Source: Streptomyces umbrinus (lineage in GTDB: Bacteria; Actinomycetota; Actinomycetes; Streptomycetales; Streptomycetaceae). Taken from it: a stretch of 64,000 nucleotides of DNA. Made by a program: the position numbers and the translations under genes. Location: the NCBI RefSeq assembly GCF_030817415.1, contig NZ_JAUSZI010000002.1:5890001-5954000 (forward strand). The letters run 5' to 3'. How positions within the stretch are numbered: the stretch's first letter is position 1; each line of letters opens with the position of its first letter. Shown here piece after piece: positions 57,548 to 61,053 of the stretch. The notes under the pieces are model-generated. The model worked only from the letters and a program-made list of their open reading frames with translations, did not search any database and had not been told where the DNA came from.

Positions 57548-58417
57548 ATGACCTCGGCAGCGGCTTCACCAGGGACTTCTTCGGGGAAGGGCGGCGGACT
57601 CGGCGCGGAACTGCGAGGGTTCAGAGAGGTACAGCGGCTCGCGTACGAGTGCGCGGAGGCGGTAGCGGCGCAGCTGAAGCCGGGCGTGACCGAGCGCGAG
57701 GCGGCGCGGATGCAGCGCGAGTGGCTGCGCGAGCGCGGCGTGCGGGACTGGTTCCATCTGCCCTTCGCCTGGTTCGGGGACCGTACGGCGTTCGTCGACT
57801 TCCGGATCCCGCTGCAGTTCTTCCCCACCAACCGGCGCCTGGAGGCGGGGATGCCGTTCATCCTCGACCTGGCACCCGTCCACAAGGGCTTCACCGCGGA
57901 CATCGGGTACTCCGGTTCGCTGGGGCCCAACCCGCTGCAGGACAAGCTCCTCGCCGACCTGGAGGCGCACCGCGAGCTGATCCTGCGCGAGGTGCGCGAG
58001 CGGCGCCCGCTGCGCGAGATCTACCAGGACGTGGACCGGCTCATGGTCCGCCAGGGCTACGCGAACCGGCACCGGGCGTATCCCTTCGGGGTGATCGCGC
58101 ACAAGGTCGACCGGGTCAGGGAGCGGCGCTGGTCACCGAAGCTGTTCGGGTTCGGCACGCAGTCGCTCAAGGGCCTGGCGAGCGACGCGATCCACGGCCA
58201 CCGTGACGGCTGGTCCCCGCTGTGGTCGCCGTACAGGTTCTCCGACCACCCTCCCCGGCCCGGTCTGTGGGCGGTCGAGCCGCACCTCGGATTCCGGGGC
58301 ACGGGCGCGAAGTTCGAGGAGATCCTGGTGGTCACCGACTCCGAGGATCCCGAGCAGAGCGCCTCCTGGCTGGACGACGATCTGCCGCACGTGCGGCGCT
58401 GGGCGGAGGGCAAGTGA
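57548..58417 (+). CDS. M24 family metallopeptidase
   Basis: 289 residues. M24 fold: FREVQRLAYECAEAVAAQLKPGVTEREAARMQ, then the metal-ligand region FILDLAPVHKGFTADIGYSGSLGPN (two Asp), HRAYPFGVIAHKV in place of the usual HGxGH, and late acidic residue VEPHLGF. The EDDxxVT element seen in aminopeptidase P is replaced by KFEEILVVTD. Substitutions suggest an atypical or creatinase-like hydrolase. It is coupled (GTGA) to the next gene. Confidence 0.8.
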   Translation: MTSAAASPGTSSGKGGGLGAELRGFREVQRLAYECAEAVAAQLKPGVTEREAARMQREWLRERGVRDWFHLPFAWFGDRTAFVDFRIPLQFFPTNRRLEAGMPFILDLAPVHKGFTADIGYSGSLGPNPLQDKLLADLEAHRELILREVRERRPLREIYQDVDRLMVRQGYANRHRAYPFGVIAHKVDRVRERRWSPKLFGFGTQSLKGLASDAIHGHRDGWSPLWSPYRFSDHPPRPGLWAVEPHLGFRGTGAKFEEILVVTDSEDPEQSASWLDDDLPHVRRWAEGK

Positions 58418-60168
58418 CGCTTGAGGGTGCGCGCGAGCGCTGGGTGCGTACGGGCGGGGTCGAGCTGTGTGTCGCCGAACTGGGCGACCCGGCACAGCCC
58501 ACGGTGATGCTCGTACACGGTTATCCGGACTCCAAGGAGGTGTGGTCCGAGGTCGCCGCGCGCCTGGCAGGGCGCTTCCATGTCGTGCTGTACGACGTGC
58601 GCGGCCACGGCCGGTCGACGGCACCGCAGCCGCTGCGCGGCGGGTTCACGCTGGAGAAGCTGACGGACGACTTCCTGGCCGTCGCGGACGCGGTCAGCCC
58701 GGACCGTCCGGTCCACCTGGTGGGCCACGACTGGGGCTCGGTCCAGGCCTGGGAGTTCACCACGGTCAAGCGCACCGAGGGGCGGATCGCCTCCTTCACG
58801 TCGATGTCGGGGCCGTCCCTCGACCACTTCGGGCACTGGATCAAGAAGCGCGTGTCCCGCCCGACGCCCCGCAGGGTCGGTCAACTGCTCGGCCAGGGCG
58901 CCAAGTCCTGGTACGTGTACCTGCTGCACACCCCGGTGCTGCCCGAGCTCGCCTGGCGCGGCCCCCTCGGCAAGCAGTGGCCCAAGATCCTGCGGCGCCT
59001 GGAGAAGGTCCCCGGGAGCGACTATCCGACCCCCTCACTGCCCACGGACGCCGCGCACGGCGCCTGGCTGTACCGGGACAACGTACGGGCCCGGCTGCGT
59101 AGGCCACGCGCCGACGCGTACGCACACGCGCCCGTGCAGCTCATCACGCCGCTCGGGGACGTGTTCCTCTCGGAGAAGCTCTACGACGAGCTGGAGCTGT
59201 GGGCCCCGCAGTTGACGCGCCGCACGCTCCCGGCGAAGCACTGGATCCCGCGCACCCGGCCGGACCAACTGGCCGCCTGGATCACCGAGTTCGTGACGAC
59301 CACCGAGGGCGGGAGGACCGCATCCGCGGCGACCGGCCCGTACGCCGACCGCTTCGGCGGGCAGTTGGTGCTGGTCACCGGTGCGGGCAGCGGTATCGGG
59401 CGGGCCACCGCCTTCGCGTTCGCCGAGGCCTGCGCGCGCGTGGTGGCCGTCGACCGGGACGCGGAGAGCGCGGCCCGCACCGCGGAGCTGTCCCGGCTCA
59501 TCGGCGCCCCTCAGGCCTGGGCCGAGACGGTCGACGTCTCCGACGAGCAGGCCATGGAGAAGCTCGCCGAGAAGGTCGCCGCCGAGTACGGGGTGGTCGA
59601 CGTCCTGGTCAACAACGCCGGGATCGGGCTGTCCGGCTCGTTCCTCGACACCACCGCGGAGGACTGGCGCAACGTCCTCGGCGTCAACCTGTGGGGCGTT
59701 ATCCACGGCTGCCGGCTCTTCGGGAAGCAGATGGCCGAGCGCGGACAGGGCGGCCACATCGTCAACACCGCGTCCGCGGCCGCGTATCTGCCCTCCAGGA
59801 CACTGCCCGCCTACAGCACCTCGAAGGCGGCGGTGCTGATGCTCAGCGAGTGCCTGCGCGCCGAGCTGGCCGGGCAGGGCATCGGGGTCTCGGCGATCTG
59901 CCCGGGCTTCATCAACACGAACATCACGTCGACCGCGCGTTTCACGGGGGTCGACGCCGACGAGGAGAAGCGGCGCCAGAAGAAGTCCGCGCGGCTGTAC
60001 GGGCTGCGCAACTACCCGCCGGAGAAGGTCGCCGAGGCCGTACTTCGCGCGGTCGTCCGCAACCAGGCCGTGGTCCCCGTGACCGCGGAGGCGCGCGGCG
60101 GCCGCCTCATGTCCCGCTTCACGCCGAGAGCGCTGCGCGCGATCGCACGAATGGAGCCACCCCTGTGA
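58414..60168 (+). CDS. fusion of alpha/beta hydrolase and short-chain dehydrogenase
   Basis: 584 residues from GTG 58414. Residues ~15-295 are an epoxide-hydrolase-like alpha/beta domain: VMLVHGYPDSKEVW, HLVGHDWGSVQAWEF (nucleophile Asp in HDWG) and a late His in KHWIP. Residues ~310-560 are an SDR: QLVLVTGAGSGIGRATAFAFAEACARVVAVDRD (NAD(P) site), NNAG, the Ser in VNTASAAAYLP and YxxxK in AYSTSKAAVL. Both catalytic sets look intact. Such fusions occur in actinobacteria; the joint reaction is unknown. It overlaps the following pseudogene by 4 nt. Confidence 0.9.
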   Translation: MTLEGARERWVRTGGVELCVAELGDPAQPTVMLVHGYPDSKEVWSEVAARLAGRFHVVLYDVRGHGRSTAPQPLRGGFTLEKLTDDFLAVADAVSPDRPVHLVGHDWGSVQAWEFTTVKRTEGRIASFTSMSGPSLDHFGHWIKKRVSRPTPRRVGQLLGQGAKSWYVYLLHTPVLPELAWRGPLGKQWPKILRRLEKVPGSDYPTPSLPTDAAHGAWLYRDNVRARLRRPRADAYAHAPVQLITPLGDVFLSEKLYDELELWAPQLTRRTLPAKHWIPRTRPDQLAAWITEFVTTTEGGRTASAATGPYADRFGGQLVLVTGAGSGIGRATAFAFAEACARVVAVDRDAESAARTAELSRLIGAPQAWAETVDVSDEQAMEKLAEKVAAEYGVVDVLVNNAGIGLSGSFLDTTAEDWRNVLGVNLWGVIHGCRLFGKQMAERGQGGHIVNTASAAAYLPSRTLPAYSTSKAAVLMLSECLRAELAGQGIGVSAICPGFINTNITSTARFTGVDADEEKRRQKKSARLYGLRNYPPEKVAEAVLRAVVRNQAVVPVTAEARGGRLMSRFTPRALRAIARMEPPL

Positions 60169-61053
60169 CCGATGAAGGCACCACCGTGAGCGACCACTAC
60201 CCGATCACACCGCGGCGGGTGTCCTTCGACTGGGAGGAGACCCCGCTCCACTGGATACCGGACGAGCCGACCGCGACCCACGTCATCAATGTGCTGCATC
60301 TGCTGCTGCCGGCGGGGGAGCGGTGGTTCGTGAAGGTCTTCAAGGAGGGCCTGCCGCTGCTAGCGAACCGCGCCGTCCCCCGATCGGGTGATGATCGGAC
60401 CATCGGCTTGCAAGGGACGAGCCCTCCCCCGGTAACGTCGCTCGTGCGATCTGGTCAGCCGAACGGGGCGTCAGCGCGCGGGCCCCTGCTCCACCGGAGA
60501 GATGGTTCAGGGCTTCCCAAGCGCCGCTTGCCGCATTCACCGGGCCGGGTCGTGAGGGACCCCGCCCGGCCGAGACCGGAGCACGGACAGGATCCGTGTC
60601 GCCGCTCGACTGCGAAAGCGGGCGACCAGTGCACCCAAGACCGTTCGGGGTGCGCCAGAGGTCAGGTTCTCGCCAGCCACTGCCCAGGAACGGTTCATGG
60701 GCCAGGAGGCCCCAACAGGGTAGAGATGCCCCCGTACGCCCGGCGGAACACGGGCACGGCGGTCCCCGCGTCCTTCAGGCTATGCCTACGGGCGCGGGGG
60801 CGCCGCCTACCTCATACGACACGACCCGCCGCCGGCCGGGCGGCCGCGCTACTCGCTCGGGGAGCACAACCGGGCGGTGCGCAAGGGGCTGTTGCCCAGG
60901 TGGAAGGAGCTCGGCTCCGCCGTGCCGCGCTATCTGCGGCGCTCGTACCATCCCTCGCAGGAGGGCTCGATGCGCAGGGCGGTCGAGTATCTGGCGCAGT
61001 CACCCGCGGCCCGGACGGCGGCGGGGGCGATCGGCAGAGCCGCGATCGGGTAG
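60165..61053 (+). pseudogene. metal-dependent hydrolase pseudogene, interrupted in the middle
   Basis: Starts at GTG overlapping the SDR stop. The first ~66 codons (YPITPRRVSFDWEETPLHWI, THVINVLHLLLPAGERWFVK) are a good match to PF10118/COG3687 metal-dependent hydrolases. From ~60363 to ~60789 the sequence is unrelated. The gene's C-terminal ~87 codons then resume in a different frame (GAAYLIRHDP..., RYSLGEHNRAVRKGLLPRW, YLRRSYHPSQEGSMRRAVEYL, stop 61053). The family's middle ~135 residues, including its metal ligands, are missing. A single-base error cannot explain this: both ends are conserved and the middle is foreign. Confidence 0.75.
60363..60789. ncRNA. structured non-coding segment, possible HEARO/IscB omega-RNA-like relic
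   Basis: About 427 bp with no protein similarity, packed with nested stems: 60417-60422/60440-60445 (ACGAGC/GCTCGT); 60465-60469/60482-60486; 60540-60550/60559-60569 (CCGGGCCGGGT/ACCCCGCCCGG, one bulge); 60582-60587/60593-60598 (CACGGA/TCCGTG); 60598-60606/60617-60626; and 60631-60636/60648-60653 (GCACCC/GGGTGC). The order GCGAAAGCGGG, GCACCC, GGAAC, GGCCAGG, GCGGAACA recalls IscB omega-RNAs as I remember them (Ogeu-type: CGAAAG, GCACCC, GGAAC, GCCAG, GGGGAACA). The nuclease gene is absent. Assignment is by motif order only, unverified. Confidence 0.35.

Follow-up and report, generated by a model that had tools for sequence, protein, structure and literature searches.

In the window, that is, the whole analysed stretch of 64,000 nucleotides from Streptomyces umbrinus, a predicted metal-dependent hydrolase gene, which is uninterrupted in intact orthologues such as locus L054, is present as two remnants with a non-coding, structured element between them at approximately 60375–60694 (Table 1). 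The first 67 amino acids, belonging to the 5′ remnant, match PF10118 (Metal_hydrol) over residues 15–65 with an E value of 1.1e-16, and the DNA alignment with orthologues reaches 60359, the remnant probably ending at ~60374. For the 3′ remnant no Pfam match was obtained at 1e-3, and its DNA is up to 89% identical to genus genomes; the sequence-only reading, which had placed hydrolase sequence at both ends, was thus borne out by a protein domain at the 5′ end and by DNA similarity at the 3′ end. By DNA alignment, positions 793–1031 of L054 correspond to window positions 60100–60359 and positions 1432–1752 to 60727–61048. The sequence from 60695 onward is hydrolase-derived, less certainly so for 60711–60726. 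The alien non-coding middle proposed by the same reading is indeed a structured insert, with the extent given above and not the suggested 427 bp, and of the motif order reported there CGAAAGCGGG, GCACCC and GGAAC lie in the conserved scaffold, whereas GGCCAGG and GCGGAACA belong to the hydrolase flank.

Compared with L054, ~37 bp of hydrolase DNA are gone to the left of the insert and a net 331 bp to the right, in agreement with the earlier claim that part of the gene was lost and that this was no simple insertion; in the orthologues checked, the middle consists of other, hydrolase-coding DNA and not of insert sequence. The flank loss is partly matched in two other species, and locus L082 of genome G235 carries the same insertion with a further internal deletion; related species share the insertion by descent, at least in part. 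Locus L064 (genome G253) was considered as a plain empty site and dropped: it lacks the same right hydrolase stretch and the left one as well and yet holds part of the guide, which makes a later loss more likely. In the window, the left-flank loss followed the insertion, and the right-flank loss could predate it.

Table 1. Features of the interrupted hydrolase locus (window coordinates)
Feature	Position	Strand	Basis
5′ remnant, predicted metal-dependent hydrolase pseudogene	60165–60374	+	PF10118, E 1.1e-16; DNA alignment with orthologues
Predicted ORF-less IS607/TnpB-type element	60375–60694	+	31-copy alignment; junctions versus L082 and intact orthologues
-35-like box TTGCAA, the element's own promoter-like sequence	60408–60413	+	sequence; TTG in relatives
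-10-like box TAACGT, 19 nt past the -35-like box	60433–60438	+	sequence; box in relatives
Predicted reRNA (omega-RNA) scaffold, 3′ domain	60544–60694	+	covariance model R1; independent blastn matches
Hairpin GTGCACCC / GGGTGCGC with pseudoknot arm in loop	60629–60655	+	helix 5: 96.0% paired, 4 double-change pairs
Pseudoknot 5′ arm ACCGTTC	60640–60646	+	helix 6: 99.4% paired
Pseudoknot 3′ arm GAACGGT, scaffold end	60688–60694	+	pair counts; IS607 rule in PMC10711439
Predicted guide TCATGGGCCAGGAGGC	60695–60710	+	same bases as in the hydrolase gene (GFMGQEA-like motif)
3′ remnant of hydrolase gene	60727–61053	+	alignment with orthologues

Promoter-like box, scaffold and guide

The left edge of the element is uncertain by ~15 bp and the right edge is sharp (GGAACGG plus a fixed T), the last T of the 3′ pseudoknot arm being this fixed right-flanking nucleotide. 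Relative to the usual copies of ~360 bp the window copy is 5′-truncated, with promoter-like box, scaffold and guide all kept. As its left end is gone it is probably immobile now; its RNA could still be made and would start at ~60445–60448. The promoter-like box occupies the same place in 60 of 72 relatives against a shuffle expectation of 0.94, as counted with a pattern that had been picked after inspection of the copies, and TTG stands at the -35-like place in 60/60 of the relatives having the -10-like box.

The 3′ 150 nt of the element correspond to the reRNA scaffold found at IS607-type tnpB 3′ ends, and pair counts in alignment A1 reveal a conserved fold common to both. For 40 pairs, including the pseudoknot, 94.6% pairing was obtained over 44 sequences, with double changes at 19 pairs; none of 500 shuffles reached this degree of pairing. 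Helix 6, the pseudoknot, lacks covariation support because it is nearly invariant. Across 30 ORF-less copies, compensatory changes occur at 11 of the 40 pairs. The window copy itself has 36 pairs intact, three broken and one gap, and its scaffold scores 132.5 bits with R1, a model of which this copy was part. The search for covariance-model matches in Rfam suggested by the sequence-only reading returned none within the insert, HEARO included: at this locus only four matches appeared (E 3.5–9.2), well under the cut-offs and outside the insert, and a search of 16 related loci with E up to 1 gave one tRNA and two weak matches, none within the element. RAGATH, if represented in the library, likewise gave zero matches at this locus (E up to 10) and at the related ones (E up to 1). 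The presence of GTGCGATC in the element had suggested a group II intron, a reading that was rejected since no intron model matched here or at the 16 loci.

The putative guide lies directly 3′ of the scaffold, and its target adjoins a target-adjacent motif, as is expected of a reRNA. Of the 29 best hydrolase loci, 26 contain it with up to two mismatches (16 exactly), following GGG(G/C/A)T or AGGGT, the kind of motif that IS607 guides need; in 19 of these 26 intact targets the motif is GGGGT. Since intact loci hold the guide bases after the G-rich motif, the element was evidently inserted at that site. Among ORF-less copies, 67 of 68 guides are distinct. No second target for the window guide was detected in its own genome, so that, if it is used at present, this would be against DNA entering from outside, and no target copies for guides of other elements were found among the loci compared.

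Relatives and candidate protein partners in Streptomyces

The second copy that had been sought was found both in the same genome (78% identity over 265 bp, E 3.3e-51) and across the genus, where 104 of 295 genomes, the own one included, gave matches, some to ORF-less copies and others to tnpB-linked ends. Scattered ORF-less copies of ~360 bp occur across dozens of Streptomyces species, and one strict pattern picks out 97 stretches. The aligned copies share the same internal layout, and 80 named ORF-less loci of up to 8 kb, searched at E 1e-5, yielded no match to TnpB. In a scaffold tree that also included 14 of the 22 available tnpB-linked scaffolds, 30 ORF-less scaffolds form a single branch (support 100/99), all copies having been sampled by likeness to the window copy; the ORF-less copies are apparently a lineage of their own. 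With the scaffold model, five copies were located in the genome, namely two orphans, two at the TnpBs and one unassigned. Element matches were present in 10 plasmid records and absent from viral contigs and phage records. Among the matches listed in searches of largely open-access literature, no description of ORF-less IS607 guide-RNA elements in Streptomyces was found.

The right end GGAACGGT is common to most tnpB elements and ORF-less copies, 30 of 31 copies ending in GGT. A left-end motif, present in full ORF-less copies and missing from the window copy, occurs upstream of tnpB: of 22 elements, 5 have it with at most three mismatches, and 11 with at most four at a distance of 1.1–2.3 kb from the right end; among 22 shuffled sequences one reached four mismatches and none fewer. 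Insertion at GG with a fixed right-flanking nucleotide is indicated by the left boundary, where G occupies each of four positions in 43–47 of 48 copies, a count that leans toward G because the anchor motif itself held GGGG. After joining of the flanks, Pfam found CoA_trans and NADAR domains across the junctions of L124 and L149, the only two tested, which were picked from 10 inspected copies and both fit a four-G join. Several other inspected copies gave their long frame when two Gs were used for the join, and by visual inspection only L101 is compatible with four. An empty-site test by open frames did not discriminate: for 37 copies, frames of at least 150 aa numbered 10, 13, 10, 11 and 14 at join offsets from -2 to +2, the counts at the alternative offsets being equal or higher. 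L011, which had looked like a clean insertion into a permease gene, was dropped once its flanks had been inspected.

A serine-recombinase TnpA is present in the genome and absent from the element itself; beside a related tnpB, the TnpA at L084:1005–1580 scores 169.4 bits with NF033518 (cut-off 110). The genome encodes two TnpBs with open frames, one of them adjoining an IS607 TnpA; TnpB genes of this genome lie at G000:C2:8918017–8919678 and 7108402–7110117. With guided_TnpB (NF040570) the TnpB gave a local match at 396–462 (45.2 bits, E 7.7e-12), below the 100-bit cut-off, the L037 protein had no Pfam match at 1e-3 and only weak ones under the cut-off, and a poor AlphaFold model (pLDDT 53.7) showed a weak Cas12f fold match. 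This candidate partner is divergent, and we call it TnpB-related, a name that NCBI uses for many listed homologues. In 48 homologues the candidate active-site residues D322 and E383, assigned by eye, are invariant and D460, assigned likewise, nearly so. TnpB was found in 30/30 genomes chosen for element matches versus 4/30 chosen without; in 4 of the 30 positive genomes the TnpB matches are partial or weak (best E 4.9e-76 to 5.4e-7).

Proposed mechanism and alternatives

The right end and the scaffold, together with the left end in full copies, are shared with IS607-type tnpB elements. We conclude, with a probability of about 0.87, that the block is, also by origin, an ORF-less, MITE-like IS607-family element with a TnpB guide-RNA gene as cargo, which upholds the earlier notion of an orphan ORF-less guide-RNA-like mobile element in a chromosomal gene and assigns its scaffold to the IS607-type TnpB reRNAs. 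IS607 TnpA would move such an element in trans via GG-GG recombination, and the promoter near the left end would drive an RNA through the scaffold into ~16–20 nt of flank. A TnpB encoded elsewhere in the genome would bind this RNA and cut alleles without the element, and the repair that follows would copy the element in, resulting in homing and retention. In the window, the element landed in the hydrolase gene between GGGGT and TCATGGGCCAGGAGGC. RNA production and cleavage by TnpB are predictions from sequence features, and we regard guidance of TnpB in trans by the ORF-less RNA as more likely than not. At slightly below even odds we further envisage an old, self-standing Streptomyces lineage of protein-free mobile guide-RNA genes (~360 bp, own promoter) that rely on IS607 TnpA for movement and on TnpB for homing, one TnpB serving several dispersed guides that are rewritten at each insertion; on this view, cutting of that kind may also account for lost target sequence in the flanks, as in this hydrolase gene.

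A substantial though lesser chance is given to the same identity without function, i.e. an internally deleted IS607 element that hitchhikes on TnpA, keeps the scaffold only as its right end for transposition and makes no trans-acting RNA. The truncation and three broken pairs of the window copy, the still more deleted version in L082 and the lack of a remaining target in the genome are consistent with this, but the compensatory changes among ORF-less copies and the fixed-place promoter-like box exceed the needs of recombination ends. That many tnpB elements were deleted independently is unlikely in view of the single well-supported branch, the shared internal layout and the 97 stretches with one ORF-less pattern, even though other deletion derivatives would be missed by a sample collected by likeness to the window copy and the tree took in only part of the tnpB-linked scaffolds. 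TldR is a precedent for an exapted regulatory RNA, here one that would guide a bound, non-cutting TnpB; the insertion having been passed on, at least partly, across related species would suit such a role, which we nevertheless consider very improbable as guides differ in nearly every copy, the candidate catalytic residues (by eye) are kept in the genome's TnpBs and the genome holds no second target. The assignment to an IscB-associated omega-RNA (HEARO) relic made by the sequence-only reading has next to no probability left: HEARO/IscB omega-RNAs are mobile, structured and often ORF-less, a general likeness only, and IscB omega-RNAs carry the guide on the opposite side of the RNA from TnpB reRNAs, whereas here it lies 3′ of a scaffold continuous with tnpB 3′ ends, and RF02033 remained unmatched at E up to 10.

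Comparison with known systems

TnpB, the ancestor of CRISPR-Cas12, and its guide RNA are usually viewed as one selfish unit. Nuclease-free guides with their own promoter and a covarying fold would, if true, make the guide a parasite of the nuclease and form a scattered natural array of trans-acting guides. With each insertion site as its own target, many natural guide-target pairs would become available, guide locations would be revealed for a large, little-studied family of Streptomyces TnpB-related proteins, and some puzzling interrupted genes in Streptomyces genomes would be accounted for. Guiding in trans is directly testable in genomes with both ORF-less copies and TnpB. Meers et al. reportedly described in 2023 PATEs, non-autonomous IS200/IS605 elements with omega-RNA in their ends; like these, the present elements encode no protein and have ends and a guide RNA in common with their relatives, and they differ in the IS607 serine recombinase, as opposed to the HUH TnpA of IS200/IS605, and in their occurrence in Streptomyces.

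IS607 tnpA-tnpB elements, according to PMC10711439, have GG-rich boundaries and a fixed right-flanking nucleotide that serves as last scaffold base before the guide, with GGG as target motif of ISXfa1. The window element resembles them in boundaries, fixed nucleotide, G-rich target motif and a scaffold as at the tnpB 3′ end, and differs in its lack of tnpA and tnpB, its own promoter-like box and a scaffold unmatched by an Rfam family. According to PMC11061315, 64% (10,258/16,029) of RAGATH-18-derived reRNAs adjoin a TnpB, so that this group, too, includes RNAs with no TnpB next to them. Both are conserved RNAs adjoining IS607 TnpBs; the TnpBs differ in size (~550 aa here, 390 on average for RAGATH-18), as do the hosts, which are high-G+C actinobacteria here and 97.8% Firmicutes strains for RAGATH-18 in that paper.

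An ORF-less insert in a decayed hydrolase gene

The predicted metal-dependent hydrolase gene in the window is broken. Its first 67 codons match PF10118 (E 1.1e-16), and comparison with the intact orthologue L054 revealed that ~37 bp of gene sequence were lost to the left of an insert and net 331 bp to its right. Rfam gave no match inside the insert, and the few weak matches (E 3.5-9.2) were all located outside it.

Features of the window at the interrupted hydrolase gene
Feature	Position	Description
648-aa ORF	58222-60168	directly upstream of the broken hydrolase gene; alpha/beta-hydrolase and short-chain dehydrogenase in a single chain (by eye)
Hydrolase gene, left part	60100-60359	alignable to L054
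Insert	~60375-60694	protein-free, without Rfam match
Promoter-like sequence of the window copy	60408-60438	TTGCAA-19-TAACGT
Hydrolase gene, right part	60727-61048	alignable to L054

The related locus L082 (genome G235) carries the same insertion with the same left junction, internally deleted; the insertion therefore predates the split from G235, and the left-hand loss is later than the insertion. In L064 (G253) the same right-hand stretch is absent, part of the guide is kept and there is no element, while L073 (G211) has its own separate deletion. The right-hand loss may be either older or younger than the insertion. Decay of this hydrolase gene is thus seen in three related species, in one case through a deletion without any element.

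An ORF-less family and its IS607 tnpB relatives

A second copy of the insert was found in the same genome (78% identity across 265 bp), together with a third match, less strong, where a tnpB gene ends. Matches to the insert occur in 104 of 295 genus genomes, with ORF-less copies and tnpB-linked ends mixed. A pattern specific for the ORF-less copies yielded 97 stretches in the GTDB genome set; 80 were given as loci, 79 from Streptomyces and one from Kitasatospora, and many of the genomes hold several. The right end was identified in 68 of the 80 and both ends in 40, of which 26 are 357-362 bp long. As eight guides are common to GTDB-set and genus-genome copies, the two sets overlap. No TnpB match at E 1e-5 was obtained in the 80 loci (up to 8 kb each, some shorter), and the search of the window and 30 further loci gave a single match, in L030, which is the scaffold's own translation. 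Just upstream of GATCTGG a promoter-like TA[AGC][CG][GA]T, a pattern devised after inspection of the copies, is present in 60 of the 72 copies with enough sequence (0.94 in shuffles), and all 60 carry TTG at the -35 place. In the scaffold tree 30/30 ORF-less copies form a single branch (support 100/99) beside 14 tnpB-linked sequences; the set was gathered by similarity to the window copy, so further ORF-less lineages may exist.

Two clean insertions were found, L124 and L149: joining their flanks at GGGG|T yields coding sequence for a CoA transferase and a NADAR domain that spans the junction; an open-frame test on the joined flanks of 37 copies was uninformative. One plasmid record of Streptomyces sp. 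NBC_01724 (NZ_CP109170.1) holds 11 places matching the ORF-less element, and the one inspected sits between annotated genes.

In most of 20 fetched loci, a match to the 3' core alone coincides with the 3' terminus of a long ORF (~550 aa), and some of these ORFs are preceded by a Resolvase-domain gene (PF00239; L037). The Resolvase-type gene of the own genome scores as an IS607 transposase (NF033518, 169.4 bits, cut-off 110). For the long ORF, the guided_TnpB model (NF040570) gave E 7.7e-12 and 45 bits, under its cut-off of 100 bits, and Pfam gave no match at 1e-3; its homologues number at least 4301 proteins, many named TnpB-related by NCBI, and among the matches listed almost every relative with a species name comes from Streptomyces. 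Candidate RuvC-like D, E and D residues were located by eye in both TnpBs of the genome. A poor AlphaFold model (pLDDT 53.7) gave Cas12f as top Foldseek match (E 1.1e-4, TM-scores <0.25). ORF-less copies and tnpB elements share the right end GGAACGGT as well as the left end GGGGTTG..AACTGCT, which is present with up to 3 mismatches in 5 and up to 4 in 11 of 22 tnpB elements, 1.1-2.3 kb away from the right end (22 shuffles: one at 4 mismatches, none with fewer).

Over their final 75-100 residues, these TnpBs consist mostly of translated guide-RNA scaffold, a dual-use stretch (L083:1405-3135, residues ~480-577) with very low AlphaFold confidence (~30). On a plasmid of Mycolicibacterium sp. TY66 (NZ_AP023334.1, 1025-2641 of the fetched locus) the gene of a 538-aa 'hypothetical protein' ends in a scaffold match, so that an unrecognised TnpB of the same kind may exist outside Streptomyces.

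TnpB was detected in 30/30 genomes chosen from the 104 with insert matches (E <=1e-100 in 26) and in 4/30 chosen from the 191 without (E <=1e-100 in 2), a contrast that is partly built in because the match-less genomes were selected by absence of a DNA match that tnpB ends also can give. Of the former 30, 28 contributed a fetched copy to an alignment and 2 did not; one genome, G012, has TnpB without an insert-type DNA match. The covariance model of the scaffold, trained on sequences including the window copy, found five scaffolds in the own genome. Two are orphans and two adjoin intact TnpBs; at the fifth, C2:3932417, the TnpB match is confined to residues 448-549, largely translated scaffold.

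Scaffold fold and guide

Forty-four scaffolds were aligned, 30 of them ORF-less and 14 tnpB-linked; the decayed ORF-less copy L027, the weak hit L003 and 8 of 22 tnpB-linked loci were omitted. The alignment supports a fold of 40 pairs in 8 helices including one pseudoknot. This fold is 94.6% paired across the 44 sequences, a value biased towards structure since three hairpins and the pseudoknot were drawn from L006 and the others from RNAalifold. Both-sided changes occur at 19 of the 40 pairs (11/40 among ORF-less copies alone), 0/500 shuffles reach any of five measures, and slid partners give 31-42%. Unprompted, RNAalifold returned several of the same helices, the third hairpin not among them; the pseudoknot is near-invariant and without covariation support. 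The window copy keeps 36 pairs, with 3 broken and one gap.

PMC10711439 describes a fixed nucleotide after the right end of IS607 elements as part of the scaffold, and GGG as target motif of ISXfa1. GGT stands at the end of 30/31 copies. In the window the bases that follow it, TCATGGGCCAGGAGGC, are the hydrolase gene's own sequence; they recur with up to 2 mismatches in 26 of the 29 best hydrolase loci (own locus excluded; exact in 16). The bases just before them are GGGGT in 19 of these 26 loci and GGGCT, GGGAT or AGGGT in the other 7; the remaining three of the 29 are the decayed L082, L064 and L073. Guides are distinct in 67 of 68 copies; the sole shared one belongs to L141 (S. samsunensis) and L142 (S. 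niphimycinicus), probably one and the same insertion. In the own genome no second target of the window guide was found: the 11 matches at <=3 mismatches equal the control level and, own junction aside, none has fewer than 2.

Proposed mechanism and comparison with known systems

Most likely, an IS607 TnpA moved the element in trans, and a TnpB encoded elsewhere received, or still receives, its guide RNA from it; expression and cleavage are inferred. If the window guide still has a use, it would be directed at incoming alleles.

That TnpB elements can have protein-free relatives is already known in principle, PATEs reportedly being an example. From numbers in PMC11061315 we compute that 36% of RAGATH-18 RNAs are not adjacent to TnpB. 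What seems to be new here is that ORF-less guide genes of IS607 type, having a promoter-like box of their own and a covarying scaffold without Rfam match, make up a lineage in actinobacteria; a description of this lineage was not found in the open literature searched.
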